Origin: Fimbriimonas sp.
GTDB lineage: Bacteria > Armatimonadota > Fimbriimonadia > Fimbriimonadales > Fimbriimonadaceae
DNA length: 64,000 nucleotides
Direction: 5' to 3'
NCBI GenBank assembly: GCA_029866005.1
Contig: JARXAE010000009.1
Span: 1 to 64,000 of the forward strand
Within the stretch, counting starts at the first letter, position 1. Each line of letters starts with the position of its first letter. Of the stretch, positions 47-35,152 are shown one piece after another. The translations under genes were made by a program, and so were the position numbers. The notes below the pieces were generated by a model. That model was not told where the DNA came from. It was given only the letters and a program-made list of their open reading frames with translations, and did no database searches.

Positions 47-871
47 ATGCCATTATCTCGCCGAGACCTTCTTGCCAAACTCTCCGCCGCTGGAGCCGGA
101 ACGATTTTGGGTGGCCTCTTTGCCACCAAATCTCAGGGCCAAGGGTACGACGATACTCCGATGTTGCCGGGTGGGCACTGGCGCGTTCACGACAGCAAGC
201 GACCGCAGCCTAAGGTAGTCACTCCGGGAGCCGCTTACGGTCAGGCACCATCCGACGCGAAAGTGCTGTTCAGCGGCGGCGACATGAAAGAGTGGAAGGG
301 CGGACCTTGGACGGTGACCCAAGACTACTTCGAAGTCAAGCGCGGTACGGGTTCAGTTCAAACCATTGGAGAGTTTGGAGATTGCCAACTCCACCTCGAA
401 TTCTGCGAGCCTGCAGAAGTGAAGAACAGCGGCCAAGGACGCGGAAACTCGGGAATCTTCTTCATGGGCCAGTACGAGGTTCAGGTGCTTGATGCCTACA
501 ATAATCTGACTTATGCCGACGGAACGACCGGTTGTGTGTACGGTCAGACAGCTCCGCTGGTCAACGCCTGCCGCAAGCCCGGCGAGTGGCAGACCTACGA
601 CATCATCTTTGTTGCTCCTCGGTTCAAGGACGGCAAACTGGACACGCCTGCTTACGTGACAGTGTTCCTTAACGGAATTCTGGTTCAGCACTCAACACCG
701 CTGATCGGCGAGACTGCGCACCGACAGGTTGGGACCTACACTCCACACGGACCGAAGGGACCAATCACCCTGCAGGATCACGGAGATCCCGTTCGATTCC
801 GCAACATCTGGATCCGCGAAGTTGGCCCCCACGACGAGCTAAGGCACCGACAGATGTGGGAGATCGGTTAG
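47..871 (+). CDS. DUF1080 (3-keto-disaccharide hydrolase-like) exported protein
   Basis: About 274 residues. The N-terminus holds a twin-arginine-like signal (SRRDLLAKLS followed by an Ala/Gly-rich hydrophobic stretch), so export by Tat is likely. The mature part matches the DUF1080 jelly-roll family: FSGGDMKEWKGG near the start, NSGIFFMGQYEVQVLD in the middle, and a W-x-TYDIIFVAPRF plus VTVFLNGILVQ segment, which are characteristic of this family. Members act on 3-keto-glycosides or bind sugars; substrate unknown here. An in-frame TTG lies at 20, but the ATG at 47 puts the RR motif right at the N-terminus and is preferred. The gene converges on trmFO, overlapping it by 4 bases. Confidence 0.88.
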   Translation: MPLSRRDLLAKLSAAGAGTILGGLFATKSQGQGYDDTPMLPGGHWRVHDSKRPQPKVVTPGAAYGQAPSDAKVLFSGGDMKEWKGGPWTVTQDYFEVKRGTGSVQTIGEFGDCQLHLEFCEPAEVKNSGQGRGNSGIFFMGQYEVQVLDAYNNLTYADGTTGCVYGQTAPLVNACRKPGEWQTYDIIFVAPRFKDGKLDTPAYVTVFLNGILVQHSTPLIGETAHRQVGTYTPHGPKGPITLQDHGDPVRFRNIWIREVGPHDELRHRQMWEIG

Positions 872-2247
872 GCCAACTCTTCCAGCCATTTCGAGAGGCC
901 GCTTTGCGCGGCCTCAATTTTTTTGGCTCGCTTGATTCCCTTGTCTCTCGTCGGTTCTTCGGGGTCGGGCAGGATGCCCCAGTTGATGTTCATCGGGGCG
1001 AACTCTCGCTCAGTTTGATCCTGCAGGTGAGCCAGAAGGGCGCCGTATGCGGTCTCGCGCGGCGGGGCAACGTAGCCCTGACCGTCCAGTTTTCGGGCAA
1101 TGTTGAGGCCGACCAGGATTCCCATCGCGGCTGATTCGACATAGCCTTCGACGCCGGTGAGTTGACCAGCGACATAAACGTTCGGCGCCGAGCGAAGTTG
1201 GAGTTGCTCGTCAAGGGCGGTTGGAGCCTCCAGATAGGTGTTTCTGTGGATCACTCCGTACCGAATGAACTCGGCATTCTGGAGACCCGGCACCATTTGA
1301 AACACGCGCTTCTGCTCACCGAACCGCAAGCGGTTTTGGCAGGCAACCAACGAGTAAAGCGTCTTCTCCCGGTTCTCGGGGCGGAGTTGAAGGGCGGCAT
1401 AGGGGCGGCGATCGGTGCGCGGATCGGTCAACCCGATTGGCTTGAAGTTTCCAAATGCGAGCGAGCGCTCACCCTTCTCCGCGATGGCTTCGATCGGGGT
1501 GCAACCTGCGAAGTATTTGATCTTTTCGAGGAGGGCCTGCTCGGGGAGCGCGTAATCTCCAAGTTCCGCCTCGCCTCGAACACCGCCAGCCTCGAAGGCG
1601 TGGAATGGAGCCCGCTCGGCAGACACCAGAGCCTCAACGAACGCATAATACTCCTCTTTGTTGAAGGGGCAGTTCAGGTAATCGTTCCCTTCGCCCTTGT
1701 CGTAACGGGATTGGGCGAAAACGACCGACATGTCCAGCGATGACGCTTCGACGGTTGGAGAGACCGCGTCGTAAAAGTAGAGGTGCTTGCGTCCAGTTTT
1801 GGCGGCAAGCCATTCCGAGAGTTCGGGAGATGTGAGCGGACCCGTGGCAAGTACCAGCGGTCCCTCGCACGACTCGGCCATGGTGGGTGTGAATTCGTCT
1901 CGAACTACCTCGATCAGCGGATGCTCCTCCATCGCCTGGGTCACCGCTTTTCCAAAGTTATCGCGGTCAACACACAGAGCTTCTCCACCCGGAACAGAGT
2001 GTTCTTCGGCAAGCCGCAGAACCAAGGATCCCAGGGCGTTCATCTCCGCCTTGAGTTGCCCCGCTGGCGAGGTCGGAGATTTTGATTTGAGCGAGTTAGA
2101 ACAGACAAGCTCAGCAAAGTAGTCGGTCGTGTGAGCTGGAGTGCGCTTGACAGGGCGCATCTCGTAAAGCCGAACCGAAACTCCCCGAGACGCCAAAGCC
2201 CAGGCTGTCTCCACACCCGCAAACCCGGCACCAACAACGGTCACCAT
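868..2247 (-). CDS. trmFO: Methylenetetrahydrofolate--tRNA-(uracil-54-C5)-methyltransferase TrmFO
   Basis: 459 residues, normal for TrmFO. It makes ribothymidine at U54 in the T-loop of tRNA using methylene-THF and FAD. The N-terminal FAD-binding motif is VVGAGFAGVE (residues 4-13), followed by the family-typical LYEMRP and AELVCSNSLKS segments. GQLTGVEGYVESAAMG in the C-terminal half and PMNINWGILP are also family hallmarks. The ATG overlaps the stop of the upstream histidine-phosphatase gene as TGATG, so the two are probably translationally coupled. The last 24-57 bases of the gene also encode the opposing terminator of the DUF1080 gene. Confidence 0.96.
   Translation of the reverse strand: MVTVVGAGFAGVETAWALASRGVSVRLYEMRPVKRTPAHTTDYFAELVCSNSLKSKSPTSPAGQLKAEMNALGSLVLRLAEEHSVPGGEALCVDRDNFGKAVTQAMEEHPLIEVVRDEFTPTMAESCEGPLVLATGPLTSPELSEWLAAKTGRKHLYFYDAVSPTVEASSLDMSVVFAQSRYDKGEGNDYLNCPFNKEEYYAFVEALVSAERAPFHAFEAGGVRGEAELGDYALPEQALLEKIKYFAGCTPIEAIAEKGERSLAFGNFKPIGLTDPRTDRRPYAALQLRPENREKTLYSLVACQNRLRFGEQKRVFQMVPGLQNAEFIRYGVIHRNTYLEAPTALDEQLQLRSAPNVYVAGQLTGVEGYVESAAMGILVGLNIARKLDGQGYVAPPRETAYGALLAHLQDQTEREFAPMNINWGILPDPEEPTRDKGIKRAKKIEAAQSGLSKWLEELA
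895..924 (+). terminator. Rho-independent terminator of the DUF1080 gene, inside trmFO
   Basis: GAGGCCGC, loop TTTG, then CGCGGCCTC, followed by AA and seven T on the + strand. It starts 24 bases after the DUF1080 stop and lies wholly within the 3' coding part of the convergent trmFO gene. Confidence 0.8.
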
Positions 2248-2867
2248 CAGCTTAAGACTCCGTGGGCTGATTTCTCACCGGCCATCACCAAATGCGACGT
2301 ATCGTCGTAACGAATCAATCGAAAGCGCCCATCCGCCATCCGTTCAAACTCCGTCACTCCAGCGTTGGAGAATTTGAACGACGCTGCCATCTCCACCGTC
2401 CCACCCAGAAGGCGGGCACAGAGCATTGAGGAGGTTCCGCCGTGTGAAACCACTGCCGTATCAAACAGGGTCTCTGAGAGACGCTGATGAATCTGCGCAA
2501 GGCGGTTCCAAACATCGCGTTTGGATTCTCCGCCCGGAGGGGTGACATCGGGGTGGTCACCAGCAGTGATAAACCGACGTCGAACTTCACGGTAATCCTC
2601 TCCTTCCCATTCGCCGAAACCTTGTTCGCGCAGAAGCGCATCGGCTTTGACGGAGGTGCCAATCGCAAGGGCAGTTTGGTGGGCTCGCTTGAGATCAGAC
2701 GCGAGAACTAAGCCGACCGAAGCAGCCGAAAATGCTCGACCAACTGCCTCAGCTTGAGCGAGACCGACTTCGTCCAGCGGGATATCAGTATGACCCTGAG
2801 CTCGTTTGTCGAGGTTCCAAGCGGTCTGTCCGTGGCGGACGAGGTAGACGCGAATGGAGGGGAGCAC
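2247..2867 (-). CDS. Histidine phosphatase (phosphoglycerate mutase-like) family protein
   Basis: 206 residues with the classic N-terminal YLVRHGQTAWN motif (phosphohistidine at about residue 11) and the second catalytic histidine in VVSHGGT. DIPLDEVGLAQA and the LASDLKRAHQTA and EQGFGEWEG segments are typical of the GpmB/CobC branch. The substrate cannot be told from sequence: broad-specificity phosphatase and cobalamin-pathway phosphatase are both possible, and no cobalamin genes are nearby. It lies upstream of trmFO with a one-base overlap. Confidence 0.9.
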   Translation of the reverse strand: MLPSIRVYLVRHGQTAWNLDKRAQGHTDIPLDEVGLAQAEAVGRAFSAASVGLVLASDLKRAHQTALAIGTSVKADALLREQGFGEWEGEDYREVRRRFITAGDHPDVTPPGGESKRDVWNRLAQIHQRLSETLFDTAVVSHGGTSSMLCARLLGGTVEMAASFKFSNAGVTEFERMADGRFRLIRYDDTSHLVMAGEKSAHGVLS

Positions 2868-2880
2868 GGTTAGAGTTTAC

Positions 2881-2903
2881 TCTGCCCCCTTTGCGGGGGC
2901 AGA
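2881..2903 (-). terminator. Perfect hairpin after msrA (probable terminator, no T-run)
   Basis: TCTGCCCCC, a 5-base loop, then GGGGGCAGA: a perfect 9-bp GC-rich stem, 8 bases past the msrA stop and 13 bases before the start of the phosphatase gene. No T-tract follows on either strand, so it may be a weak terminator, an mRNA-stabilising end or a processing site. Confidence 0.5.
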
Positions 2904-2911
2904 ACGTTGAA

Positions 2912-3583
2912 TCAGCCCTTCTTGAGCTTTGAGGCATACTTCTGGCGGAACTTCGTCACCTTGGGCGAGACGACGTAGGCGCAATAACCGGTGTTCATCT
3001 TTGCCTTCTCAGCTTCCGATGCTTTCTCGTACTTGGCGAAATAGTTCTGGTGGTACTCCTCGGCCCGCTGGTAGTTCGTTAGCGGCTCCAAAGTCGTCAC
3101 GATCTTGTTCGCGTACAGCTTTTCGGTCGTGATGTCCTTGATCACATTCTGCGCAAGTTCCTTCTCTTCATTGGTCGTGTAGAAGATTACAGAGCGGTAC
3201 TGCGTTCCCGAATCCGGACCTTGACGATTGAGCGTGGTGGGATCATGAGAGACGAAGAACATCTTCAGGATATCGGCTGACGAGATCTGGTCTGAGTGGT
3301 AGAAGACTTTGACAACTTCAGCAACACCCGTCCGCCCGGTACAGACTTCTTCGTATGTGACAGGGAAAACGTGTCCACCGGCATAGCCGCTTTCTACTTT
3401 CTCGACACCCTTCAGGTCCTCGAGCACTGCCTCGACGCACCAGAAGCAACCGCCACCAATCACTAACTCTTTCAAATCCATCCGTTTCTTTACTCCGCTT
3501 TGACCAAAACTAGCTCCGGCGACCGCGAGGGTAAGTCCGAGACCAATTGCCTTCATCATTCGACGACCCATGATTATATTCAT
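2912..3583 (-). CDS. msrA: Peptide-methionine (S)-S-oxide reductase MsrA, exported
   Basis: 223 residues. It reduces methionine-S-sulfoxide in proteins. The catalytic motif GGGCFWCVE is at about residues 43-51, then GVEKVESGYAGG and the C-terminal NTGYCAYV segment with a candidate resolving cysteine. The N-terminus (MMKAIGLGLTLAVAGASFG) is a signal peptide, so this copy probably acts in the periplasm. Several in-frame Met codons (3583, 3571, 3559) leave the exact start uncertain. It is divergent from dapD, with an 80-base shared promoter region. Confidence 0.95.
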   Translation of the reverse strand: MNIIMGRRMMKAIGLGLTLAVAGASFGQSGVKKRMDLKELVIGGGCFWCVEAVLEDLKGVEKVESGYAGGHVFPVTYEEVCTGRTGVAEVVKVFYHSDQISSADILKMFFVSHDPTTLNRQGPDSGTQYRSVIFYTTNEEKELAQNVIKDITTEKLYANKIVTTLEPLTNYQRAEEYHQNYFAKYEKASEAEKAKMNTGYCAYVVSPKVTKFRQKYASKLKKG

Positions 3584-3663
3584 ACGATGAGAATAGGTGC
3601 GAAAGTTCGATAAAGTTCCGTGTTCGGTGAATGGTGTGAAGCAAGCGGTTAAACTATTCCATC

Positions 3664-4482
3664 ATGCAAAATTATCAGCCTGCCATCGACGCAGCTTGGG
3701 ATGAACGGGACGGCATCTCGACGTCGAGTTACCCCGATGGCCTCAAAGATGCGATCGGTAGCGTTTTGCATCTGCTCGACTCGGGACGCCTTCGGGTCTG
3801 CGAAAGAATTGATGGCGAGTGGACCACTCATCAGTGGATCAAGAAGGCCGTTTTGCTTTCTTTCAAGCTCTCAAACAACCACGTCTCCGCAGCGGGACCG
3901 ATGCACTTTTACGACAAAGTGCCGCTGAAGTTTGAGAACTACACTCCGGCGGAGTTTGCGACAAATGGCTTTCGGGTCGTTCCTCCGGCGACAGTTCGCA
4001 AGGGGGCTTTTATCGGACGGAATGCGGTTTTGATGCCGTCCTATGTGAACGTCGGCGCTTATATCGACGAGGGCACGATGGTTGACACTTGGGCGACGGT
4101 TGGGTCTTGTGCTCAGATCGGAAAGAATGTTCACCTGAGCGGCGGAGTTGGGATTGGCGGGGTGCTGGAACCTCTTCAGGCGAATCCGGTGATTATTGAG
4201 GACAACTGCTTCATTGGTGCACGATCCGAAGTGGTTGAAGGCGTGATTGTGGAGGAGAATTCCGTGCTTTCGATGGGCGTTTTCTTGGGAATGAGCACGA
4301 AGATTTTGAACCGCGCGACAGGGGAGATCACCTACGGTCGAATTCCGGCAGGTTCCGTCGTGGTACCGGGGTCGTTGCCGTCCAAGGATGGTTCGCATTC
4401 GTTGTACTGTGCGGTAATTGTAAAGACGGTGGACGCTCAGACCCGCGCGAAGACCGCTTTGAATGAGCTTTTGCGCGACTAA
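3664..4482 (+). CDS. dapD: 2,3,4,5-tetrahydropyridine-2,6-dicarboxylate N-succinyltransferase DapD
   Basis: 272 residues, the usual DapD length. It adds a succinyl group to tetrahydrodipicolinate on the way to meso-diaminopimelate and lysine. The left-handed beta-helix hexapeptide repeats run through the middle and C-terminal part (for example [39 protein letters not shown]). The stop overlaps the dapE start by one base (TAATG), so the two pathway steps are coupled. Confidence 0.97.
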
Positions 4483-19506: not shown

Positions 19507-20694
19507 ATGAAGCAAGACTTTCCGCTTTTTACCCACAACCCAGATTTGGTGTATCTGGACTATGCGAATACCGCCCCGAAACCCCAATCGGTGATCTCCG
19601 CGGTATGCGAGTACTACACCCACTACTCTGGAAATGTCCACCGGGCGAATCACGACATTGGAAGCCGTGCAGACCACGCCTACGAAATGGCGCGAATGCG
19701 GATTGCCGAGTATCTGGGTGCTGAGCGAAATGAGATCGTGTTTCAAAAGAACACGACCGAGGCAATCAACCTTGTTGCTCAATCGTTCGTTGCCAAGCTG
19801 ATTGAGCCTGGCGACAAGATTCTTCTCACTGGACTCGAGCACCACGCAAATCTCGTTTCTTGGCAGTTGCTCGCCGCCCGGACTGGAGCAGAACTTGTGT
19901 TCTCTCAGGTCGACGAAGATGGGTGTTTTGACGAGCAGCACTGGCTGAAGCTATTGATTTCCGGAGTGCGCTTTGCTGCATTCACCGCAGTTTCGAACGT
20001 AACAGGCGAGCGCTTCCCGATCGAGCAGATGCTCGCCGCCGCTCGAGGTCTCGGGGTTCCAACCCTGATTGACGCCGCCCAGCTGATGCCGCATGAACGC
20101 ATCGATTTCGATAAGTTAGGAGCCGATTTCTTAGTCTTTTCGGGACACAAGGTTTACGGTCCAACTGGCGTCGGAATCCTTATTGGACGGTACGAACTCC
20201 TCAACCAAATGGACCCCTGGATTGGCGGAGGAGATATGATCGACACCGTTCACCTCTCGAGCTCAACGTTTCAAGAACCGCCCTTGCGGTTCGAAGCCGG
20301 AACTCCTCCGATTGCCAGCGTCATCGGTCTCGGAGCCGCCATCGACTATCTGGACGGACATTTGACAGAAACTCAACACGCACACGAGTCGTGCATGATG
20401 CAGGGTGTTCTCAACGCTCTCAACCAGATCGAGGGAACGAGATTTCTCGGAGATCCCACCTCAGATGCGCGCCTCGCCTCCTTCGTCATCGAAGGTGTTC
20501 ACTCGGCCGACTTAGGAGCCTATTTGAACGAGAAAAATGTCGCCGTCAGGGTTGGGAAAATGTGTGCGCACCCTCTGCTTGAGCAATGTGGCATCGACTC
20601 CGCCGTTCGCGCCTCCATCGGACTCTGTACCGACCAAACCGACATCGATAAATTTGCCGATGCCCTGACCAAAGCCGTCAAACGCCTCAGATGA
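19507..20694 (+). CDS. sufS: Cysteine desulfurase SufS
   Basis: 395 residues, PLP-dependent class-V aminotransferase fold. It takes sulfur from cysteine for Fe-S clusters. The PLP lysine is in FSGHKVYGPTG, the catalytic Cys is in RVGKMCAHPLL, and LDYANTAPKP and HHANLVSWQ are typical of SufS/CsdA. The stop overlaps the sufE start (ATGA). No sufBCD is in the window. Confidence 0.94.
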   Translation: MKQDFPLFTHNPDLVYLDYANTAPKPQSVISAVCEYYTHYSGNVHRANHDIGSRADHAYEMARMRIAEYLGAERNEIVFQKNTTEAINLVAQSFVAKLIEPGDKILLTGLEHHANLVSWQLLAARTGAELVFSQVDEDGCFDEQHWLKLLISGVRFAAFTAVSNVTGERFPIEQMLAAARGLGVPTLIDAAQLMPHERIDFDKLGADFLVFSGHKVYGPTGVGILIGRYELLNQMDPWIGGGDMIDTVHLSSSTFQEPPLRFEAGTPPIASVIGLGAAIDYLDGHLTETQHAHESCMMQGVLNALNQIEGTRFLGDPTSDARLASFVIEGVHSADLGAYLNEKNVAVRVGKMCAHPLLEQCGIDSAVRASIGLCTDQTDIDKFADALTKAVKRLR

Positions 20695-21074
20695 GTACCC
20701 TGCAACAACGCGCCGAAGAGATCGCTGAGGAACTGAGTTACCTCGACCGTGAGGAACGTTTCGAGTGGATCATCGACACCGGGAAGGAGCTCAAAACAGC
20801 CGACGACTTCCAGGATCACGAGCTCGTGAAAGGATGCCAAAGCAAAGTCTGGTTGAGAGTTTGGCAGGAGGAAAACAACCTGCGAATCATCGGGACCTCC
20901 GATGCGCTCCTCGTCAAGGGCATCGTTTCACTGCTCATCTCGATCTTCGACAATGCCACGATCGATGAGTCGAAATCATTCGATTTCATCGAATGGATGA
21001 ACAAGAATCAAATCAGCTTGTCGATGCAACGAATGCAGGGCCTTGAAGGCATGTTGCGCCGTATCCAAGGTTAG
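20691..21074 (+). CDS. sufE: Cysteine desulfuration protein SufE
   Basis: 127 residues. It accepts sulfur from SufS and boosts its activity. The acceptor Cys lies in VKGCQSKVWL (about residue 48), with EERFEWIIDTGKEL before it, as in SufE/CsdE. It is translated from an ATG overlapping the sufS stop by 4 bases, giving a dedicated SufSE operon. Confidence 0.95.
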   Translation: MSTLQQRAEEIAEELSYLDREERFEWIIDTGKELKTADDFQDHELVKGCQSKVWLRVWQEENNLRIIGTSDALLVKGIVSLLISIFDNATIDESKSFDFIEWMNKNQISLSMQRMQGLEGMLRRIQG

Positions 21075-21076
21075 CC

Positions 21077-21589
21077 TCAGCTTGCTTTGGGGAATCGACC
21101 ATGCTTGTCGACGAACATCACGATGTCGCTCAGCTTAAACCTTCGTTGTCCGCCGGTGGTTCGATGGTGGTTCAACCAGCCACGATTGGTGTAGCGGCGG
21201 ACGGTTGCTGGACAGACTCCGAGAATTCGACTGGTTTCTTCTAGGCTGAGTTGCGGATCGAGGAGCCGTTCAATCATCTCCTCGCGAGTCTCTTTGAAGT
21301 CGCCACGATAGTAATGAGCAGTGACTTCGTCATCGAACACTGAACTGAGGAAACTCACCGTTTTGGGGAGCTGCTCAAGAACTTGAGTGAGCCTTGGGTT
21401 GAGATTACTGTCGTGCTCAGCAACTCGAGGACGTGGCGCGCGCATCTCCGTCTTCTGATACTTGCCAGTTCGCTTCTTCTTCCCGCTCAGATACGAGGAG
21501 ATTCTCGGTAGCGCTTCTTCGTCATCCTTCGGACGATCAAGAAAGGCGTTCTCGATATATGCGTATGGATCTAGCGGCTTTTTTTTCAT
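21077..21589 (-). CDS. Helix-turn-helix (MerR/excisionase-like) DNA-binding protein
   Basis: 170 residues. A winged HTH occupies about residues 110-160: LSLEETSRILGVCPATVRRY, then GGQRRFKLSDIVMFVDKHG. The N-terminal 100 residues are Lys/Arg-rich and not recognised. A palindrome AAGTTA-N7-TAACTT lies 20 bases upstream of the start and may be its own operator. It is convergent with sufE with a 2-base gap. Confidence 0.75.
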   Translation of the reverse strand: MKKKPLDPYAYIENAFLDRPKDDEEALPRISSYLSGKKKRTGKYQKTEMRAPRPRVAEHDSNLNPRLTQVLEQLPKTVSFLSSVFDDEVTAHYYRGDFKETREEMIERLLDPQLSLEETSRILGVCPATVRRYTNRGWLNHHRTTGGQRRFKLSDIVMFVDKHGRFPKAS

Positions 21590-21608
21590 GTGCTACTCCG
21601 TTGCAGTC

Positions 21609-21627
21609 AAGTTACGTCCGTTAACTT
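21609..21627. promoter_or_regulatory. Candidate operator AAGTTA-N7-TAACTT upstream of the HTH gene
   Basis: A 6-bp perfect dyad separated by 7 bases, just upstream of the HTH protein start at 21589. Its position suggests autoregulation; this is an inference from position and symmetry only. Confidence 0.35.
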
Positions 21628-21753
21628 AACACATTACCGATAATTACACAAGGGGTTTCTTTGGACAAGAACATTAGCATAACTTTGCGAGTGAAATCGC
21701 AATAACCCGTCCAGAGCTAGGCTCCAAGCCCCTTTCGAAGAAGCACCCGGAGT

Positions 21754-22248
21754 CTAGCTGACCTCAACTTCGATCTTTGCGCGGGCTGCGATCTCTTCGA
21801 CGATCAGTAAGTAGGGCGCCTCGAGGCCATTGCGCTCCCAACCGATGGGAACCTTAAGGGGACCAGCCACGACGTGAGCAAAGGGCTTGATCGTGAACGT
21901 CCCCTTTTCCAGGGTGAGCGTCGCCTTATCCTTAACTAAAGAGATTTTCTTGATCGAAGCATATGGTATGGACTTGATCGAACTGCCGGAGACAACGTCC
22001 ATACGGTCGTCGAGAAGAACGAATTCGCTGGACGTTGAGCGGATGTGGGCGAGCTCGGCGTAGGCGGATTTGCCGAGGTTGAAAACCGCTCCCGCAACGT
22101 TTCGGACCGACTCGGTAAATCCGGCGAAGTCCCCCGACGCAGGTTCGGTGGCGGCGCGACCACTTGCTTTGGCGTCCTCCTTGAGGCGGTCTGCTTCCGT
22201 ATGAAGCCAGCGCATTGCTTGGCCAGGTTTGTAGCGAACAGTTTCCAC
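21754..22248 (-). CDS. Unrecognised protein with PH-like domain
   Basis: 164 residues. The N-terminus (RYKPGQAMRWLHTEADRLKE) is helical and charged. The C-terminal 95 residues are a beta-rich unit, FVLLDDRMDVVSGSSIKSIP then YASIKKISLVKDKATLTLEK, that resembles bacterial PH (YdbT/YvbH-like) domains. No signal or membrane segment. Function unknown. It is divergent from the C39-type peptidase gene. Confidence 0.6.
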   Translation of the reverse strand: METVRYKPGQAMRWLHTEADRLKEDAKASGRAATEPASGDFAGFTESVRNVAGAVFNLGKSAYAELAHIRSTSSEFVLLDDRMDVVSGSSIKSIPYASIKKISLVKDKATLTLEKGTFTIKPFAHVVAGPLKVPIGWERNGLEAPYLLIVEEIAARAKIEVEVS

Positions 22249-27660: not shown

Positions 27661-29829
27661 ATGGCAATGTTATCTTTGGCTCTCGCGCTTTACTTACAGG
27701 CTGGACCTTCATTGGACACCCTGAACGAGCTCGCGAAAAAGCGGGACGCAAAAGCATTGGCGTCCTTCTCGATCGGTGATGGGTCGGAATTCAAGATACT
27801 TCGTGGGGGAGCCTACGAGGTCGGAAGATTTGGGTGGAAGGTTGAAGCGTTCGAACCCAAGTTCACGAAGAGTAAATTCGTCGTCTTCACCACGCCCCTC
27901 ACATCTCAAGACACTGGCGAACTCCTTTTTGAAAGAGTCGGGGGCAAGCTCAAGTTCATCTCCGAACTGGATCCCGAGCCGATCCGGCTGGCGCACCACA
28001 AACTCAACATGACCCTTTCACCCGAAAGAAAGGAAGTTGGGATTGTGGACGAGGTCACGACAACTGTGCAGAGGCAAGTCAAAGCCGAAGTCGCCACATT
28101 CCGTTTCTCGCCCTGCTACAAAGTCTCATCAATCACCGATGGCACGAGTCCAGTTCCATTCCAGCAGGTGGGAGGCATCGTCATTATCCCGACTCCAAAG
28201 GTCGACACAAGGTTTGTCATCACCTACAATGGCACCGTCAACCTGCCGCAGTACGCAGGCTCCATCTTGCCGAACAACGTCTCTTTGACCAACGATTATT
28301 GGTACCCACTCGTTAACCGCTGGCCAACGACCTATGAACTCACCGTAGAGCATCCTGCCGAGTGGGAAGTGATCGCTCAAGGCAACCGCCTGGATTCCAA
28401 ACCCTCCAAAGGGGGGCTGCAAACCACCTACAAAATGGACCTACCCGCCATTTACTGGAGCTTCACAATAGGCAAGATGCGACACATCGAAACCGACCTT
28501 GATGGCCTCAAGCATCACGTCTGGAGCACGAATCTGAATGAAGAGAAGATGCGCTATCAGCCACGCTTCAACTCTCACATCCTCGGCTTCTTCTCTCGTT
28601 CGTTTGGCGCCTATCCCTTTAAGCAGTGGGGTTCCTTGGATTCACCGACCTACGGGGGCGGAGCTCTTGAAGCCTATTCCTTCGCTACCTATGGCGAAGG
28701 CTGGCTCCCTGACGCCGATCCCCATGAGCCATCGCATACTTGGTTCGGTGGAATTCTGCCTAACACCTACTTGAAATCCTTCTGGAACGAAGGTTTCGCC
28801 GTTTGGAGCGAAGGTCTTTACGAGCGTGAGTGCGCTCTCGGCTCCACCGAAGACCGGCGCGCCGCTTTCGTCAAGGTCTGCAATCCGGCCGAGGATCATA
28901 ACGACGCTCCCTTGATGGCAAGCGGAGTCTCCATTGGTGGTGCGGCGTCTTCGCTGGGCTACGGAAAGAGTGGCGACGTCCTATCAATGCTTGAGCAGCT
29001 GATCGGCACGTCCAACATGCTTGAGGCCATCAAAGAGTGGGTCCGAATCCACCCCAAAGGCACCCCTGCCGAGTGGGAGGAGTTCGAAGCGATCATTTTG
29101 CGTCGCAACCAATCACTCGCCCTCAAAGACTTCTTTGACGACTGGTTCCGAAGACCCGGGTACGCCCAAGTCTCTCTCACCGGGCTGAGCTACGCACCCG
29201 GCAAGCTCAGCGGGCGCCTCAAATGGACCAGCCCGAAGTTCCGGATGCCACTGGAAATCTGGATGGAGAACGCAACCGGTGCACGCCAGAGCGTGATGCT
29301 CGACACCAAAGAGTGCGCCGAAGATGGATCATTCACGATCAGCATTTTGGGCTTCACTCCGAAGAAAATCTTCTTCGACCCTTATCGACGTGCGCTGCGA
29401 GCAGGCCCAACCCCGCGTTTTGACTCTTATGGCGATCTGTCCCAGTCGATGAAGATCTATCGCGATCCCGCGACACCTTTGTACATGACATCCTACGAAT
29501 CGTCTGCAACGGAGCTGGGCGATCTGGACCGGGTTCTCATCATTGGTCACCCCGACTCGACTCCAAAAATGAAAGACCTGTGCGTAAAAGCTGGCTTCTC
29601 GGTCAAGGGACAAAACTTGACCTACCGGGGAACTACGATCGACCTTACCAAGACTGGCGCAGTGGCGATCGTTGACCTAGGCGAAGGAAAGCGTTGCGGC
29701 ATCGCCCTCGGAAAGTGTGACCTTGCTCCCAAGCTCGGAAAGGCTCATGTGGGGCTGGTGGACGACCTCGGGCGGATGCTCCGGGGAGCAACCCGCTTCC
29801 CGCTTAACGCAAGTTCACTTCCCTTGTGA
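27661..29829 (+). CDS. M1 aminopeptidase-like exported protein
   Basis: 722 residues from the ATG at 27661 (GGTAGGA upstream, signal peptide MLSLALALYLQA follows); an in-frame TTG at 27616 is less likely. Zinc motif HEPSH at residues 355-359 and a later NEGFAVWSEG with candidate zinc Glu377, as in gluzincins. The spacing between the second His and Glu is 17 residues instead of the usual 18, and the GAMEN-like motif reads GGALEAYS, so activity is uncertain. The C-terminal 150 residues are a further beta-rich region. The 3' end overlaps the convergent phosphodiesterase gene by 26 bases. Confidence 0.78.
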   Translation: MAMLSLALALYLQAGPSLDTLNELAKKRDAKALASFSIGDGSEFKILRGGAYEVGRFGWKVEAFEPKFTKSKFVVFTTPLTSQDTGELLFERVGGKLKFISELDPEPIRLAHHKLNMTLSPERKEVGIVDEVTTTVQRQVKAEVATFRFSPCYKVSSITDGTSPVPFQQVGGIVIIPTPKVDTRFVITYNGTVNLPQYAGSILPNNVSLTNDYWYPLVNRWPTTYELTVEHPAEWEVIAQGNRLDSKPSKGGLQTTYKMDLPAIYWSFTIGKMRHIETDLDGLKHHVWSTNLNEEKMRYQPRFNSHILGFFSRSFGAYPFKQWGSLDSPTYGGGALEAYSFATYGEGWLPDADPHEPSHTWFGGILPNTYLKSFWNEGFAVWSEGLYERECALGSTEDRRAAFVKVCNPAEDHNDAPLMASGVSIGGAASSLGYGKSGDVLSMLEQLIGTSNMLEAIKEWVRIHPKGTPAEWEEFEAIILRRNQSLALKDFFDDWFRRPGYAQVSLTGLSYAPGKLSGRLKWTSPKFRMPLEIWMENATGARQSVMLDTKECAEDGSFTISILGFTPKKIFFDPYRRALRAGPTPRFDSYGDLSQSMKIYRDPATPLYMTSYESSATELGDLDRVLIIGHPDSTPKMKDLCVKAGFSVKGQNLTYRGTTIDLTKTGAVAIVDLGEGKRCGIALGKCDLAPKLGKAHVGLVDDLGRMLRGATRFPLNASSLPL

Positions 29830-30601
29830 CCCGCCCAGATGTCCCAGCGGAACTGATCGTCTCTCGCAAGAAGCTTGCTAGCTCGACTTGACGATCAGTT
29901 CCAATGAGGTCAACCTTGTGCTTGAAAAGTTCAGACCACATGTCGCGAGAATCATAGGCCGCCCAGAAGCGTAGTTTTTGGCCAGCAGCCTTCGTTCGGC
30001 TCACCATCTCAGTGAGGCTTTGGGATTCTGCCTCAGACATCTTCTGACTTCCCCGGTACTTAAACAGCTTCGTGAAATCCTCGCTGATTAGGGGGAAGAG
30101 GTTGGAGTCTTGCCCGATGTTCTCGGGGCGGCCGTCAACAAATGCCCACCGCTTCTTCTCAGCCTTCAAGACATCAATGGGACGATCACCAGAAAGGATC
30201 ACAGTGATCGCACGGCGCTTGAGACCCTTGTCATCAAACTTCGTTAGGATGCTGTGGTAGGGCTGCAGGTCCTTCTTGAGTTGCTCATAAACCGCCGCTC
30301 CGTCAGCTTTGATATCCACCAGCAAAATGAGTTCGCCGGGCTTGCCATAGACGGTGCCTCCATTAGCTTTGACTTGGGCAGCGAGCGGCTCCAGATACAT
30401 CTTTTTGAGCGTTCGTTCCGGGGTCAGCTGAGGCCGATCATGACCGACCAGAAGTTCGCCGTTCACCAGGAACACATCGGCTTCAATGCTACCGAAGCCC
30501 TGTTCCAATGCTCCCAAAAGGGGACGCTTTTGAACATAGTCATTGTGGGCATGAGCCATCGGGAGCACCGTGACTGACATGAGCAGAGCAGTGGCAAACA
30601 T
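29804..30601 (-). CDS. Glycerophosphodiester phosphodiesterase / PI-PLC-like exported protein
   Basis: 265 residues with signal peptide (MFATALLMSVTVLPMAHA). The TIM-barrel active-site elements are AHNDYVQKRPLLGALEQGF, SIEADVFL and LLVGHDRPQL, the pattern of the phosphatidylinositol-specific phospholipase C/glycerophosphodiester phosphodiesterase family found in many Bacteroidetes and relatives. ILLVDIKADG is a further core strand. It probably cleaves a phosphodiester outside the cytoplasm; substrate unknown. Confidence 0.82.
   Translation of the reverse strand: MFATALLMSVTVLPMAHAHNDYVQKRPLLGALEQGFGSIEADVFLVNGELLVGHDRPQLTPERTLKKMYLEPLAAQVKANGGTVYGKPGELILLVDIKADGAAVYEQLKKDLQPYHSILTKFDDKGLKRRAITVILSGDRPIDVLKAEKKRWAFVDGRPENIGQDSNLFPLISEDFTKLFKYRGSQKMSEAESQSLTEMVSRTKAAGQKLRFWAAYDSRDMWSELFKHKVDLIGTDRQVELASFLRETISSAGTSGRVTREVNLR
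29849..29902. repeat. Perfect 13-bp inverted repeat with nested hairpin at convergent gene ends
   Basis: GGAACTGATCGTC (29849-29861) and GACGATCAGTTCC (29890-29902) are perfect complements. Inside the loop GCAAG-AAG-CTTGC forms a second stem. It lies 20 bases past the M1-like stop, inside the phosphodiesterase coding region. No T-tract follows, so a terminator role for the M1-like gene is possible but unproven. Confidence 0.6.
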
Positions 30602-30635: not shown

Positions 30636-31154
30636 TTACAACTTAAGCGCCATTCCCCATTCTGGGCTCTGGCTGGGGTCGTGGCAAAGTCTTTCTCCCA
30701 CCCTGATCGCTCCGCGCTTTTCGTACAAGCGATGAGCGTCTTCAAGAATCTTGTCACTCCAGATTTCCATGACCTGACACCCTCGCTCCCGAGCAACATC
30801 GATGGTCACTTGCCACAGGGCGATCCCGAGCCCCTTCCCCCTGGCTTCAGGAAGGACGTATAACCGTTCCAACGAGCAGTCCGCATTTGCCACTCGAATT
30901 ACTCCGTCATGCATCGTCGTTCCCTCACCATCCGGAAGTGCCGGCATGAAGTCAACCGCCACTGTCCCGACCACTTCTCCGTCCACCTCACCAACGTAAA
31001 AGTGATTGCCTCGGTCGAAATAGTGTTCTTGGATGTCGTAGAGATCGGCGTGGTATCCGTCGGGAAACCAGCCCCAGTCCAGAATTTCGTAACAGGTGCG
31101 AATGACGTGTTGAATAGCAGGCTCGTCGGCGCGAGTGGCGAGGCGGATTTGCAC
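30636..31154 (-). CDS. GNAT family N-acetyltransferase
   Basis: 172 residues. The acetyl-CoA binding motif is LERLYVLPEARGKGLGIALW (Q/RxxGxG/A type), preceded by FYVGEVDGEVVGTVAVDF. Acceptor substrate cannot be predicted. It stands alone between the phosphodiesterase gene and tRNA-Lys. Confidence 0.88.
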   Translation of the reverse strand: MQIRLATRADEPAIQHVIRTCYEILDWGWFPDGYHADLYDIQEHYFDRGNHFYVGEVDGEVVGTVAVDFMPALPDGEGTTMHDGVIRVANADCSLERLYVLPEARGKGLGIALWQVTIDVARERGCQVMEIWSDKILEDAHRLYEKRGAIRVGERLCHDPSQSPEWGMALKL

Positions 31155-31208
31155 CGACAGAGTTTACTGGCTTGACACCTTTTTCGGCTTGAGGTATCCT
31201 GATGGCTT

Positions 31209-31284
31209 GGATCGATAGCTCAGTTGGTAGAGCAAGTGACTCTTAATCACTTGGTCCTGGGTTCGAGTCCCAGTCGGTCCACCA
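31209..31284 (+). tRNA. tRNA-Lys(CTT)
   Basis: Cloverleaf: acceptor GGATCGA/TCGGTCC, D-arm GCTC/GAGC, anticodon arm AGTGA-CTCTTAA-TCACT, T-arm CTGGG-TTCGAGT-CCCAG, discriminator A and encoded CCA. The 3' part from CACTTGG (31248) through the trailer and terminator is repeated in decayed form at 33753-33830. Confidence 0.95.
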
Positions 31285-31297
31285 ACATTTTAGGTTC

Positions 31298-31325
31298 AAA
31301 AAGCTCCTTTCGAGGGGCTTTTTTG
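31298..31325 (+). terminator. Terminator after tRNA-Lys
   Basis: AAAAGCTCC, loop TTTCG, AGGGGCTTTT with further T. It begins about 14 bases after the CCA end. Confidence 0.75.
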
Positions 31326-31518
31326 TTGCCTGAACCCAGGTTCAACTTTCTTCGATTGCGTCCACGAGCCTTGAGACTCGTTATGCGGCAAAGCGAGCCG
31401 ATGTCTTTTCGAAGATGAACTGGTCGCGACGCCGACCCAACCCCGTCTCTGTACTACGAATAAGGGACATCCTTTCCCTGAAAACAGGTTTACACTGATG
31501 ATGTAGGCGGAGAAAAAG

Positions 31519-32304
31519 ATGAGTTCTCAACAAGCAGGTAGTGTCAGTTTCGACTTTTCTGGCCAGGTTGCGTTTGTGACTGGTGCCGCGACAGGGATTG
31601 GCCGGGCGACGGCGGTTGCTTTTGCCAAGAGTGGGGCTAAGGTTGTAGCCGTCGACGTGAACCAGGCAGATGCAGAAGAAACGGTTAGCATGGCGCAGGA
31701 GTTCGGGGCTGATGCGAAGTTTGTGAAGTGCGATGTATCCAAACCAGATGAGGTCCTGGCGGCTGTGGAGGCCGCAGTAACGGCGTTTGGGACCATCGAT
31801 CATGCCTTTAACAATGCTGGCGTAGAGGGTGCTCAGGCGATGACTGGAGATTCGGATGAGGCCAACTGGGACCGAGTGATTGACATCAACTTGAAAGGAG
31901 TTTGGGCTTGCATGAAGTACCAGATACCCGTGATGCTGAAGAACGGTCGGGGAAGCATCGTGAACTGTTCCTCGATTGCGGGTGTGATTGGCTTTCCTGG
32001 GATTCCGGCTTACGATGCGAGCAAGCATGGAGTCATCGGTCTGACTCAGACAGCAGCTTTGGAGTATGCCACGCAGAACATTCGGGTGAACGCGGTGTGC
32101 CCAGGCGTGATCCAGACTCCGATGATTGATCGATTTGTGCATGGTGAAGCACAGATTCAACAGCAGTTGGTGGCTGGGGAGCCTTTGGGTCGCGTTGGTC
32201 ACCCAGACGAAGTTGCTTCGGCAGTGCTGTGGCTCTGTTCGAGTGGCGCTTCGTTTGTGACCGGACATCCGCTCGTTGTAGACGGCGGTTGGGTTGCCCG
32301 CTAG
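31519..32304 (+). CDS. SDR family NAD(P)-dependent oxidoreductase
   Basis: 261 residues, classical short-chain dehydrogenase. Cofactor motif TGAATGIGRA, then NNAG, catalytic Ser in VNCSSIAG and YxxxK in YDASKHGVIG. An acidic residue after the second strand (VVAVDVNQ) suggests NAD preference. GGCGGAG precedes the ATG by 6 bases. It is the first gene inside the block bounded by tRNA-Lys and its decayed 3' copy. Confidence 0.93.
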   Translation: MSSQQAGSVSFDFSGQVAFVTGAATGIGRATAVAFAKSGAKVVAVDVNQADAEETVSMAQEFGADAKFVKCDVSKPDEVLAAVEAAVTAFGTIDHAFNNAGVEGAQAMTGDSDEANWDRVIDINLKGVWACMKYQIPVMLKNGRGSIVNCSSIAGVIGFPGIPAYDASKHGVIGLTQTAALEYATQNIRVNAVCPGVIQTPMIDRFVHGEAQIQQQLVAGEPLGRVGHPDEVASAVLWLCSSGASFVTGHPLVVDGGWVAR

Positions 32305-32813
32305 GCATTCCTTGTGGCATTGGGGCTGGTTGTTTTGGTGGGTTGTTTTGAGTGCTTCCTGCAGATGAAGGTGATGGCTTTGTCTAATGGTTCCCATCTC
32401 CTGGCGCTCTACGGGAAAGAGCAACCCGGTCTTGACTCCTTTCCGCAATTCATTCGCTTTAGCGTACGAATTCCCATAGCTGAAGCTCGACCGATTCTTT
32501 CAGAGAAGGGGGTGAGTTCGACCTCAGAAGATAAAGATGCATGGTCTACCTTGATGAGTTGGAATACCTGATGCTTGGTTACGCCTTTGAAACAGGCTCG
32601 GGACCTTAGCGATGAATACATGGATGAAAACTCTGCCATATTCGCATTCTAGACTGTTATAAATGCTAGCTTTTATCTTAAAACCATAAAATAAACCTAT
32701 TTAGACTTAGTGATTAACGTATCCTTCTACTGGTATTAGTGCTAAAGCAACGGACTGGTTTAGTTCGTTCTTGACGGCTAATGAATCCAAACTATTGATT
32801 TAATGTTGGTGCA
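32305..32813. other. Non-coding stretch of about 500 bases, 3' part AT-rich
   Basis: Only short open frames without ribosome sites or recognisable motifs are present. From about 32640 to 32800 the sequence becomes clearly AT-rich compared with the surroundings. It may hold the promoter of the PEP-CTERM gene and remnants of older sequence. No RNA gene is recognised. Confidence 0.4.
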
Positions 32814-33614
32814 ATGATGAAAGGCTTTTTAAAACTATTGTGTGTTTCTTCAGCGTTCAGCTGCGCTCTCTCTGCGCAGGCACAGGTGCTATTGGATAGT
32901 AGCTTTGAAGTTCAAGCTCAGGTCCAAAGCACTCCTTTCTACTCGCAACCTTCTGGGGCTAAATGGGGCGCCGGATGGAACAACTGGGGTTGGAGTTCAT
33001 GGCAAGCAATTCAACCTGGAGGAGCTTGGACAGGTGGTGCTTTGGCCCGGACGGAGGAGTATGCAACTGGTTGGAAGTGGGCTCATTCTGGCGATGTGTT
33101 TGGAATCATCAAGGATCGTCAGACCATGTCTCAAACCTTTACCGCCACAGGTGACTCTGTAGGAACACTTAACTGGTTCGATGCTAACAGATCCTCTTGG
33201 CGTGAACACACCTGGTATGGACGTCCAAATGATTACAGTGTCACGCTGACAGATTCCTTAGGAAACGTTCAGACGATTGGCAACTTCACGAGTCAGGTCT
33301 TTCTAGGAAGTGAAGCCAATAGCTGGACCAATACTGGTGATGATCGTTTTTCTTTGGCTGGCAAGAAGGGTTGGTACTCTCGAACTGGGAATCCGGTTAA
33401 CTTAGTGAGCGGTGTCACCTATACGTTGAGTTTCAACAGTCTGAGTCCCTATAATTACGACTCATCTGGCAATGTCCAGGGGATAGACGACCGAACCACG
33501 CTGCTGGATGATGTTCAGTTCTCAGTGACCCCAGTTCCAGAGCCCGCGACTGTCACCGTCCTTGGTCTTGGATTGTTGGGTAGTTCGTTGGCTCGACGTT
33601 CTCGGAAACGCTGA
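32814..33614 (+). CDS. PEP-CTERM sorting domain protein
   Basis: 266 residues (ATG at 32814 or 32817). Signal peptide (LLCVSSAFSCALSAQAQ) and C-terminal sorting signal TPVPEPATVTVLGLGLLGSS then RRSRKR. The middle is rich in Trp, Tyr, Ser and Gly (for example GWNNWGWSSW) and looks like a carbohydrate-binding or structural beta-sandwich, without catalytic residues. It lies in the tRNA-Lys-bounded block, and its DNA is less GC-rich than most neighbours. Confidence 0.88.
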   Translation: MMKGFLKLLCVSSAFSCALSAQAQVLLDSSFEVQAQVQSTPFYSQPSGAKWGAGWNNWGWSSWQAIQPGGAWTGGALARTEEYATGWKWAHSGDVFGIIKDRQTMSQTFTATGDSVGTLNWFDANRSSWREHTWYGRPNDYSVTLTDSLGNVQTIGNFTSQVFLGSEANSWTNTGDDRFSLAGKKGWYSRTGNPVNLVSGVTYTLSFNSLSPYNYDSSGNVQGIDDRTTLLDDVQFSVTPVPEPATVTVLGLGLLGSSLARRSRKR

Positions 33615-33624
33615 TGCAAGTCTG

Positions 33625-33657
33625 GTTGCTGAAGCGCAAGTATTGCACTTCAGCAAC
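33625..33657 (+). terminator. Long hairpin after the PEP-CTERM gene
   Basis: GTTGCTGAAG-C-GCAA, loop GTA, TTGC-A-CTTCAGCAAC: 14 pairs with one mismatch, 10 bases past the stop. No T-tract follows, so termination is inferred from position. Confidence 0.5.
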
Positions 33658-33752
33658 TAGATCAAGGGAGACACCTCAGGTTGATCATCTGCTGAGGGAT
33701 GCGCCGCCTCACTCAAGCTAGGTTCAAACACGCGCCACCTCAAATTTTTTGG

Positions 33753-33830
33753 CACTTGGCCCAGGGTTCTACTCCCAGTCGGTCCAACAACATCCTAAGT
33801 TCTAAGAACCCCGCTTCCGGGGCTCTTTTG
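33753..33830 (+). repeat. Decayed copy of the tRNA-Lys 3' half, trailer and terminator (possible att remnant)
   Basis: From CACTTGG onward the sequence aligns with tRNA-Lys from its anticodon stem through T-arm (GGGTTC-TAC-TCCCAG), acceptor (TCGGTCCA), the CAACAT trailer and a downstream hairpin (CCCCG-CTTC-CGGGG then TCTTTT). Changes in the T-loop and CCA make it non-functional. No 5' half is present, so it is a fragment and not a second gene. Confidence 0.75.
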
Positions 33831-33931
33831 GATAAGCCGATGGCAAAAAGCCCGTCACATTAGGTTTCGATCAACACTCATCCTTCGTTCAATGCCCCGG
33901 CAACTGCAACTCAATGTAAACTACCCCTACG

Positions 33932-35152
33932 ATGCCCGAAAGCTCAGCACCTAAGAGAGCCCTTCGGATCGCGATGTTTTCTGAGTCCGTCTTGCCGGTT
34001 CTGAACGGAGTCAGCATCAGTGTTGACACCTTAGTCCAGGAGCTCAGAAACCGTGGACACAGTGTCCACATCTTTGCGCCGAACTTCATCCGGCATCACG
34101 AGAAGGATCCGAATACGCACCGGTTCCGCGCTATCGAGACTCCATGGGCAAAGGGATATCCATTCGCCTATCCCCCGTTCTGGCGAATGCTCCTGACGTT
34201 TCGAAAGTTTGAGTTTGATGTCATCCACACCCACACCCCCTGGATCGTCGGATTTGTGGGAATGCGTTGGGCTGAGAGCCACGAGATTCCCTTGGTCAGC
34301 ACCTATCACACCTTGTACGACCGGTACGCACACTACCTTTGGATGTTTCCGCGACGCTACATCCGATTCCGAATCGCGAAGCACACCAATTTCTATTACA
34401 ACTCTTGCGAGCAGGTGATCGCGCCTACGGCGGCGGCAAAACGGTGGCTTGAGCGACACGGTATCGTTCGCCCGGTTCATGTGATCCCGACAGGAATCCC
34501 AACCCCTCCGAAAATCGATAAAGCAGAAGCGCGCGCCGCCTTGGGAATTCCTCCCGATCTTCAAGTGTTGCTATACGTAGGCAGACTAGCCAAGGAGAAA
34601 AATCTGGAAACTCTGATTCAAATGGTGACAATTGTTTCGCCGGCGCATCCGAGAGCTAGGCTTTGGTTGGTTGGCGACGGTCCCTACCGAGACGACTTGC
34701 GGGCACTGGCCGCCAAACTTGGAGTCGGTGATCGGGTGAAATTTGTCGGCGCCGTGCCCCGAAACGAGGTTGACCAATACTACGCAAGTGCCGATCTTTT
34801 CACTTTTGCAAGCGTCACCGAAACTCAGGGTTTGGTAGTCCAAGAAGCCATGCAGTACGGCCTTCCCGCAGTAGCCATCTCCGGCGGTGGAGCAAGCGAC
34901 TCGATTGAGGACGGCGTCAACGGCTTAGTGACCAAAAATGTTATCGAAGAGTTCAGTAGTTCAGTGGCCCGACTGCTCGCCTCCCCCCAAGAACTCAACA
35001 AACTCGCAGAAGGCGCGCATCAAAAGGCATCCGAAAGCAGTATTGAACTGATGGTTGATCGGATTCTCGAAGTTTACGAACTAGCGATCGCCGGACATCA
35101 CCGCGAAGCAGAAGTTGGAGAGAAAGCAGTTGGAACCCGAAATCTCCTATAA
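33932..35152 (+). CDS. Family 4 glycosyltransferase
   Basis: 406 residues, GT-B fold. The N-terminal domain has SVLPVLNGVSISVDTLVQEL and DVIHTHTPWIVG; the C-terminal domain has LLYVGRLAKEKNLETLI, LVGDGPYRDDL and the donor-binding E-x7-E motif in ASVTETQGLVVQEAMQ. The HTHTPW and NGV features are typical of 1,2-diacylglycerol or mannosyl transferases. It probably acts in glycolipid synthesis at the membrane. Its 3' end overlaps the next gene. Confidence 0.9.
   Translation: MPESSAPKRALRIAMFSESVLPVLNGVSISVDTLVQELRNRGHSVHIFAPNFIRHHEKDPNTHRFRAIETPWAKGYPFAYPPFWRMLLTFRKFEFDVIHTHTPWIVGFVGMRWAESHEIPLVSTYHTLYDRYAHYLWMFPRRYIRFRIAKHTNFYYNSCEQVIAPTAAAKRWLERHGIVRPVHVIPTGIPTPPKIDKAEARAALGIPPDLQVLLYVGRLAKEKNLETLIQMVTIVSPAHPRARLWLVGDGPYRDDLRALAAKLGVGDRVKFVGAVPRNEVDQYYASADLFTFASVTETQGLVVQEAMQYGLPAVAISGGGASDSIEDGVNGLVTKNVIEEFSSSVARLLASPQELNKLAEGAHQKASESSIELMVDRILEVYELAIAGHHREAEVGEKAVGTRNLL

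Follow-up and report, generated by a model that had tools for sequence, protein, structure and literature searches.

The window, that is, the whole stretch of 64,000 nucleotides that was analysed, contains an intact tRNA-Lys(CTT) gene at positions 31209–31284 of the plus strand (ARAGORN; 73 bits with the Rfam tRNA model), which is followed by a trailer, here called type A, with an intrinsic-terminator hairpin (31285–31330, plus strand; -17.4 kcal/mol, z -3.75). Matches to Rfam families besides tRNA fell short of the gathering score and were disregarded. Downstream, on the same strand, lie the gene of an SDR-family oxidoreductase of 261 residues (31519–32304; Pfam adh_short_C2, 4e-73), a non-coding gap (32305–32813) whose composition is AT-rich near its right end (33% G+C at 32640–32813 vs. 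54% for the window), and the gene of a PEP-CTERM protein of 266 residues (32814–33614; Pfam PF07589, 2e-6). A very stable hairpin with no clear T run lies right after the PEP-CTERM stop (33618–33665; -28.3 kcal/mol, z -8.15). The block ends, at 33743–33830 of the plus strand, with a decayed copy of the 3' half of tRNA-Lys together with its trailer and terminator, located by a repeat finder, an att HMM and hairpin folding. In what follows this copy is called copy 2 and is proposed to be a relic attR, the intact tRNA-Lys being the regenerated target on the attL side. The SDR gene, the AT-rich gap and the PEP-CTERM gene are as the sequence-only reading had described them, and so is the lack of an integrase: neither an integrase domain nor any other mobility gene is present among the annotated genes of the block, and a search for an integrase remnant in 31000–34100 (tblastn with eight related integrases) returned only chance-level matches (best E 0.02).

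The repeat finder pairs 31248–31325 with 33753–33830, an ungapped match of 78 nt at 77% identity that comprises the 3' side of the anticodon stem, the T-arm, the acceptor stem, the trailer and the terminator, and that passes the position of the CCA. Counted by hand from the alignment, there are 5 mismatches in approximately 37 nt of the tRNA part and approximately 13 in the 41 nt of trailer and terminator. The repeat is far above chance (local score of 42, vs. a maximum of 18 and a mean of 14.4 in 60 randomised 64-kb windows, both strands), and in a genome-wide search the site of copy 2 is recovered with E = 1.6e-10. The att HMM, which starts in the anticodon arm and ends at the terminator, matches 33743–33830 over model positions 3–90 with an E-value of 3.4e-16, somewhat flattered by the fact that copy 2 is among the ten rows of the model. 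Since this match spans almost the whole model, an eroded anticodon loop is probably present in copy 2. The 5' half of a tRNA was not found at this site, and the hairpin of copy 2 still folds (-14.1 kcal/mol, z -1.87). The alignment of the two copies, with its footprint from the anticodon arm to the terminator, thus bears out the earlier claim of a second, partial tRNA-Lys copy with substitutions and without a 5' half.

Of the two main classes into which the tRNA island sites of the Islander database fall, one is centred on the anticodon (PMC4383910), and tRNA fragments that originate from mobile elements are widespread (PMC9897764). In the genus studied here (a sample of 20 genomes, of which G001 and G018 are the nearest to the window), phage-type tyrosine integrases are located approximately 145–250 bp from 3' fragments of tRNA-Lys or tRNA-Asn that start at the anticodon loop and sometimes extend through the terminator. 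Approximately 145 bp separate the start of the G001 integrase (contig C55, 9171–10331, minus strand; Pfam Phage_integrase 1.3e-29, PHROG integrase 5.5e-67) from a tRNA-Lys fragment whose beginning is in the anticodon arm. The island of this integrase resembles the block in its tRNA, in the near-identical trailer of its tRNA-Lys and in having a PEP-CTERM homologue close to the fragment; it differs in that it carries integrase and primase-like genes, its PEP-CTERM gene is outside attR, its attR has a different trailer (type B) and its two ends are on different contigs (C35 and C55). On C35 (locus L081), the sequence downstream of tRNA-Lys, at 76–4361, contains the gene of a large RHS-repeat protein, preceded by a short ORF.

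Searches with the G001 integrase led to further islands. The one on contig C6 of G002 uses the same tRNA and the same footprint, terminator included, as the block (tRNA-Lys at 1031426, fragment at 1052712–1052806). Unlike the block, it is approximately 21 kb long, contains type I restriction-modification genes (L116–L117) and an integrase (1051421–1052521) that adjoins the fragment, and has 95-nt repeats that begin at the anticodon stem, extend through the terminator and are 94% identical. On contig C31 of G012 an island lies between tRNA-Asn (4169) and a fragment at 21944–22033, with a repeat of 88%, an integrase at 20616–21731 and type I restriction-modification genes as well (L112–L113). 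The repeat spans the anticodon arm through the terminator in these two islands and in the window. Lys-type fragments were also found approximately 245 and 150 bp from the integrase start in G003 (contig C22) and G011 (contig C5), where the complete tRNA-Lys is on another contig than the fragment. In G001, G002 (C6), G012, G003 and G011 the integrase is at most approximately 250 bp from the fragment, with its start codon facing it; at two other sites (tRNA-Asn on contig C2 of G002, tRNA-Leu on contig C113 of G005) the integrase lies closer to the complete tRNA, with the fragment some 4.5–6 kb farther on. The genome that contains the window has an integrase of the same group on contig C26 (L120–L121; 14034–15032), 14 kb from a tRNA-Asn at 29237–29312; no tRNA-Asn attR was found on that contig. 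Larger, integrase-bearing islands at the same tRNA, which had been anticipated, therefore exist in G002 and G001, and since members of the same genus combine an integrase with a matching 3' fragment at tRNA-Asn and at tRNA-Lys itself, the earlier interpretation of the repeat pair as attL and attR is supported.

In comparison with the islands of the Islander database (PMC4383910), the block likewise has an intact tRNA, a 3' fragment downstream of it in the same orientation, genes between the two, and a fragment that extends to the tRNA 3' end and begins at one of the established crossover subsites (anticodon or T-arm), in this case in the anticodon arm. It differs from them in its decayed fragment, in a far flank altered by inversion and in the lack of a tyrosine integrase inside the interval, for which Islander's integrase filter would reject the block. 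Nor is there a related integrase within approximately 250 bp of copy 2 with its start codon facing it; the neighbour of copy 2, where the islands of the genus carry the integrase, is the PEP-CTERM gene. As the interval contains no integrase, the block is classed only as a relic and not as an intact island, and neither excision nor re-integration would be expected of it. The tRNA gene fragments described in PMC9897764 are similar in that a partial tRNA copy is explained by integration, but in the worked example the whole island is still present, while here most of it is gone. Most likely, the block is a new but degraded instance of a familiar type, the tRNA-targeted island.

The two genes enclosed by the repeat have different distributions. 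The SDR protein, a member of a broad oxidoreductase family, is found within the genus only in the window; its best match among the relatives searched is 50% identical, and elsewhere a search with short peptide patterns, not an exhaustive one, gave 62% for a Bdellovibrionales MAG. It is probably of outside origin and foreign cargo. The PEP-CTERM protein, by contrast, has homologues in just two of the 113 genomes that represent the order, G001 (80%) and G065 (63%). That of G065 was considered as a possible second association with tRNA-Lys and was rejected, the only tRNA nearby being tRNA-Glu. That of G001 is situated approximately 430 bp beyond the integrase-adjacent fragment, just outside the attR of the island, and no equivalent of copy 2 was found past it; no similarity was found between the gap at 32305–32813 and the region upstream of this G001 gene. 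Because the two genes are 79% identical at the nucleotide level, a divergence like that of core genes, the PEP-CTERM gene was probably near tRNA-Lys already in the common ancestor and was lost in G018, where no homologue is present, rather than being a recent arrival. The proposal that the block could be a cargo cassette consequently does not hold as a whole: it suits the SDR gene, whereas the PEP-CTERM gene, being outside attR in G001 and inside the repeat pair here, shows that the cargo boundaries are not common to both genomes.

The right flank of the block requires separate consideration. In most of the genus members that were compared (G018, G009, G002, G010, G003, G011, G006, G007, G013 and G014) the MerR-like gene (21077–21589 in the window) is directly upstream of the glycosyltransferase gene (33932–35152), and G001 agrees except that several hundred bases separate the two genes. 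In the window, the end of the MerR-like gene is 3 bp from the stop of the SufE-like gene and it is the tRNA-Lys end of the segment that faces the glycosyltransferase gene; in G018 and G001, the stretch that runs from the MerR-like gene to tRNA-Lys is turned the other way with respect to the glycosyltransferase side. Since the order common to the relatives makes that of the window the derived one, gene order in draft assemblies (a single one for this genome) indicates that an inversion of 10–13 kb put tRNA-Lys beside the glycosyltransferase gene. From the gene order of G018, the left breakpoint would be at 21075–21076, with the SufE-like stop (21074) on one side and the MerR-like gene, which ends at 21077, on the other, and the right one in the zone 33831–33931, before the glycosyltransferase gene, where homology with G001 and G018 starts at approximately 33916. 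No inverted repeats above chance that could mediate the event were found at the breakpoints. That several members of the genus retain the GNAT gene next to tRNA-Lys also speaks for the inversion. The protein encoded at 29804–30601 is only 57–60% identical to those of G001 and G018, the latter two being 79% identical to each other, a pattern from which its neighbours differ.

The sequence-only reading had predicted an empty site with the glycosyltransferase gene immediately after tRNA-Lys. No relative in the genus has this order, which is specific to the genome studied and was made by the inversion. The arrangement that does resemble an empty site is that of G018, with tRNA-Lys, a DUF5009 gene and SufE in succession (and the MerR-like gene followed by the glycosyltransferase gene), so that a close relative has an unoccupied or differently occupied site, as in islands of the Islander type. 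In the older order, as reconstructed from these genomes, tRNA-Lys, the SDR gene, the PEP-CTERM gene and copy 2 would have faced the SufE-like gene, a place that is taken in G018 by the DUF5009 gene and in G001 by the fragment of tRNA-Lys together with the PEP-CTERM gene and others.

The trailers provide an additional record of events at the tRNA. The tRNA-Lys of the window and its trailer are 97.5% identical over 120 nt to those of G001, while aligned stretches of the window and relative genomes are otherwise approximately 20–25% divergent; the tRNA-Lys trailer of G018, the closest relative, is different. The type B trailer is common to the uninterrupted tRNA-Lys of G018 and to the fragment of G001, whose complete tRNA-Lys has type A, and this split is the one predicted by integration of an element with a trailer-bearing attP. 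In a tree of concatenated proteins the window groups with G018, with G001 outside (support of 97). Considered with the trailer types, this tree favours type B as the ancestral trailer of the three genomes, in which case the type A trailer of the window is a replacement. The near-identity of the type A trailers was also considered as proof of horizontal exchange, an argument weakened by the finding that the core of the trailer, TTTAGGTTCAAAA, is also present 3' of tRNA-Lys in G006, G008, G011 and G012; for this reason it is not the private mark of one element. This 13-mer (31289–31301 in the window) has 62 exact sites in the 20 genomes of the genus (loci including L204, L213, L215, L216, L223 and L225), vs. 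6 for the reversed control. It lies directly after tRNA-Lys or tRNA-Asn at several of them and elsewhere at others, and in locus L213 it is one arm of an inverted repeat, the other being TTGAACCTAA.

Taken together, the block is best explained, with a probability of roughly three in four that includes the serial version discussed below, as the relic of integration at tRNA-Lys by one or more elements, whose integrase is gone and which was overprinted by an inversion. A phage-type tyrosine integrase would have recombined the attP of an element with the anticodon loop of tRNA-Lys, and the tRNA 3' half, trailer and terminator brought by the element would have rebuilt the tRNA gene (31209–31330), leaving the displaced 3' half and its trailer at the far end as attR (33743–33830). 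The integrase and most of the element would have been lost later, and attR, no longer under selection, would have decayed, so that an SDR gene of outside origin and the PEP-CTERM gene remain between the ends. A separate, later inversion, from 21075 to approximately 33830–33916, would have set the attR end beside the glycosyltransferase gene.

One observation does not fit the simplest form of this proposal. A single integration predicts a type B trailer in copy 2, but the trailer of copy 2 is nearer type A (score of 16, reached in 0 of 500 shuffles) than the inferred ancestral type B (scores of 7 and 9; shuffle p of 0.25 and 0.02). The misfit would be explained by serial integration, by an earlier change of trailer in the lineage or by duplication. 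In the first case, which is a form of the preferred explanation, a later element would have entered at tRNA-Lys and copy 2 would be the junction of two elements, the older one and the true attR having been lost, perhaps with the inversion. Elements use tRNA-Lys repeatedly in the genus and a single tRNA gene can carry islands in tandem (PMC4383910), which together with the type-A-like trailer makes this version a credible minority view, even though neither a second fragment nor a second element is seen and more events are needed than in the simple case.

Duplication is unlikely. It would have the 3' half of tRNA-Lys and its terminator copied locally without an integrase, or a second tRNA-Lys deprived of its 5' half, followed by decay of the copy and the arrival of the two genes by other routes. 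The trailers of both copies are indeed of the same type and no integrase was found in the block, but copy 2 shares its footprint, orientation and distal position with the fragments that adjoin integrases at this tRNA in related genomes, the trailer of the window differs from the inferred ancestral one, and a second complete tRNA-Lys(CTT) was not seen in the loci inspected. It is very improbable that copy 2 was kept mainly as a terminator of the PEP-CTERM gene, recruited from the tRNA trailer: it is approximately 140 bp past the stop, on the same strand, and its hairpin survives despite many mismatches, but that hairpin is only modestly better than shuffled sequences, a far stronger one directly follows the stop, and the tRNA part would be useless in a terminator, so that such a function could be a later use and not the origin.

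What the sequences show directly is the repeat with its footprint, the intact islands of relatives, the inverted order of genes and the difference between the trailers; the past integration at this site, the loss of the integrase and the assignment of genes to cargo are reconstructions. An island can be recognised after it has lost its integrase when the footprints of att sites and the trailers are compared across a genus, with the caution that a later inversion may have created what looks like the flank of the relic. In this lineage, tRNA-Lys and tRNA-Asn are island sites, and type I restriction-modification genes are found in two of the islands. A more tentative suggestion, which we consider doubtful, is that a group of anticodon-loop integrases in the genus uses att sites that include the trailer and terminator, so that tRNA-Lys or tRNA-Asn would exchange its terminator at each insertion and the elements would have carried near-identical trailers from one of these loci to another. 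If this were true, the tRNA-Lys of the window would be one that kept the terminator of an element after the element itself was lost.
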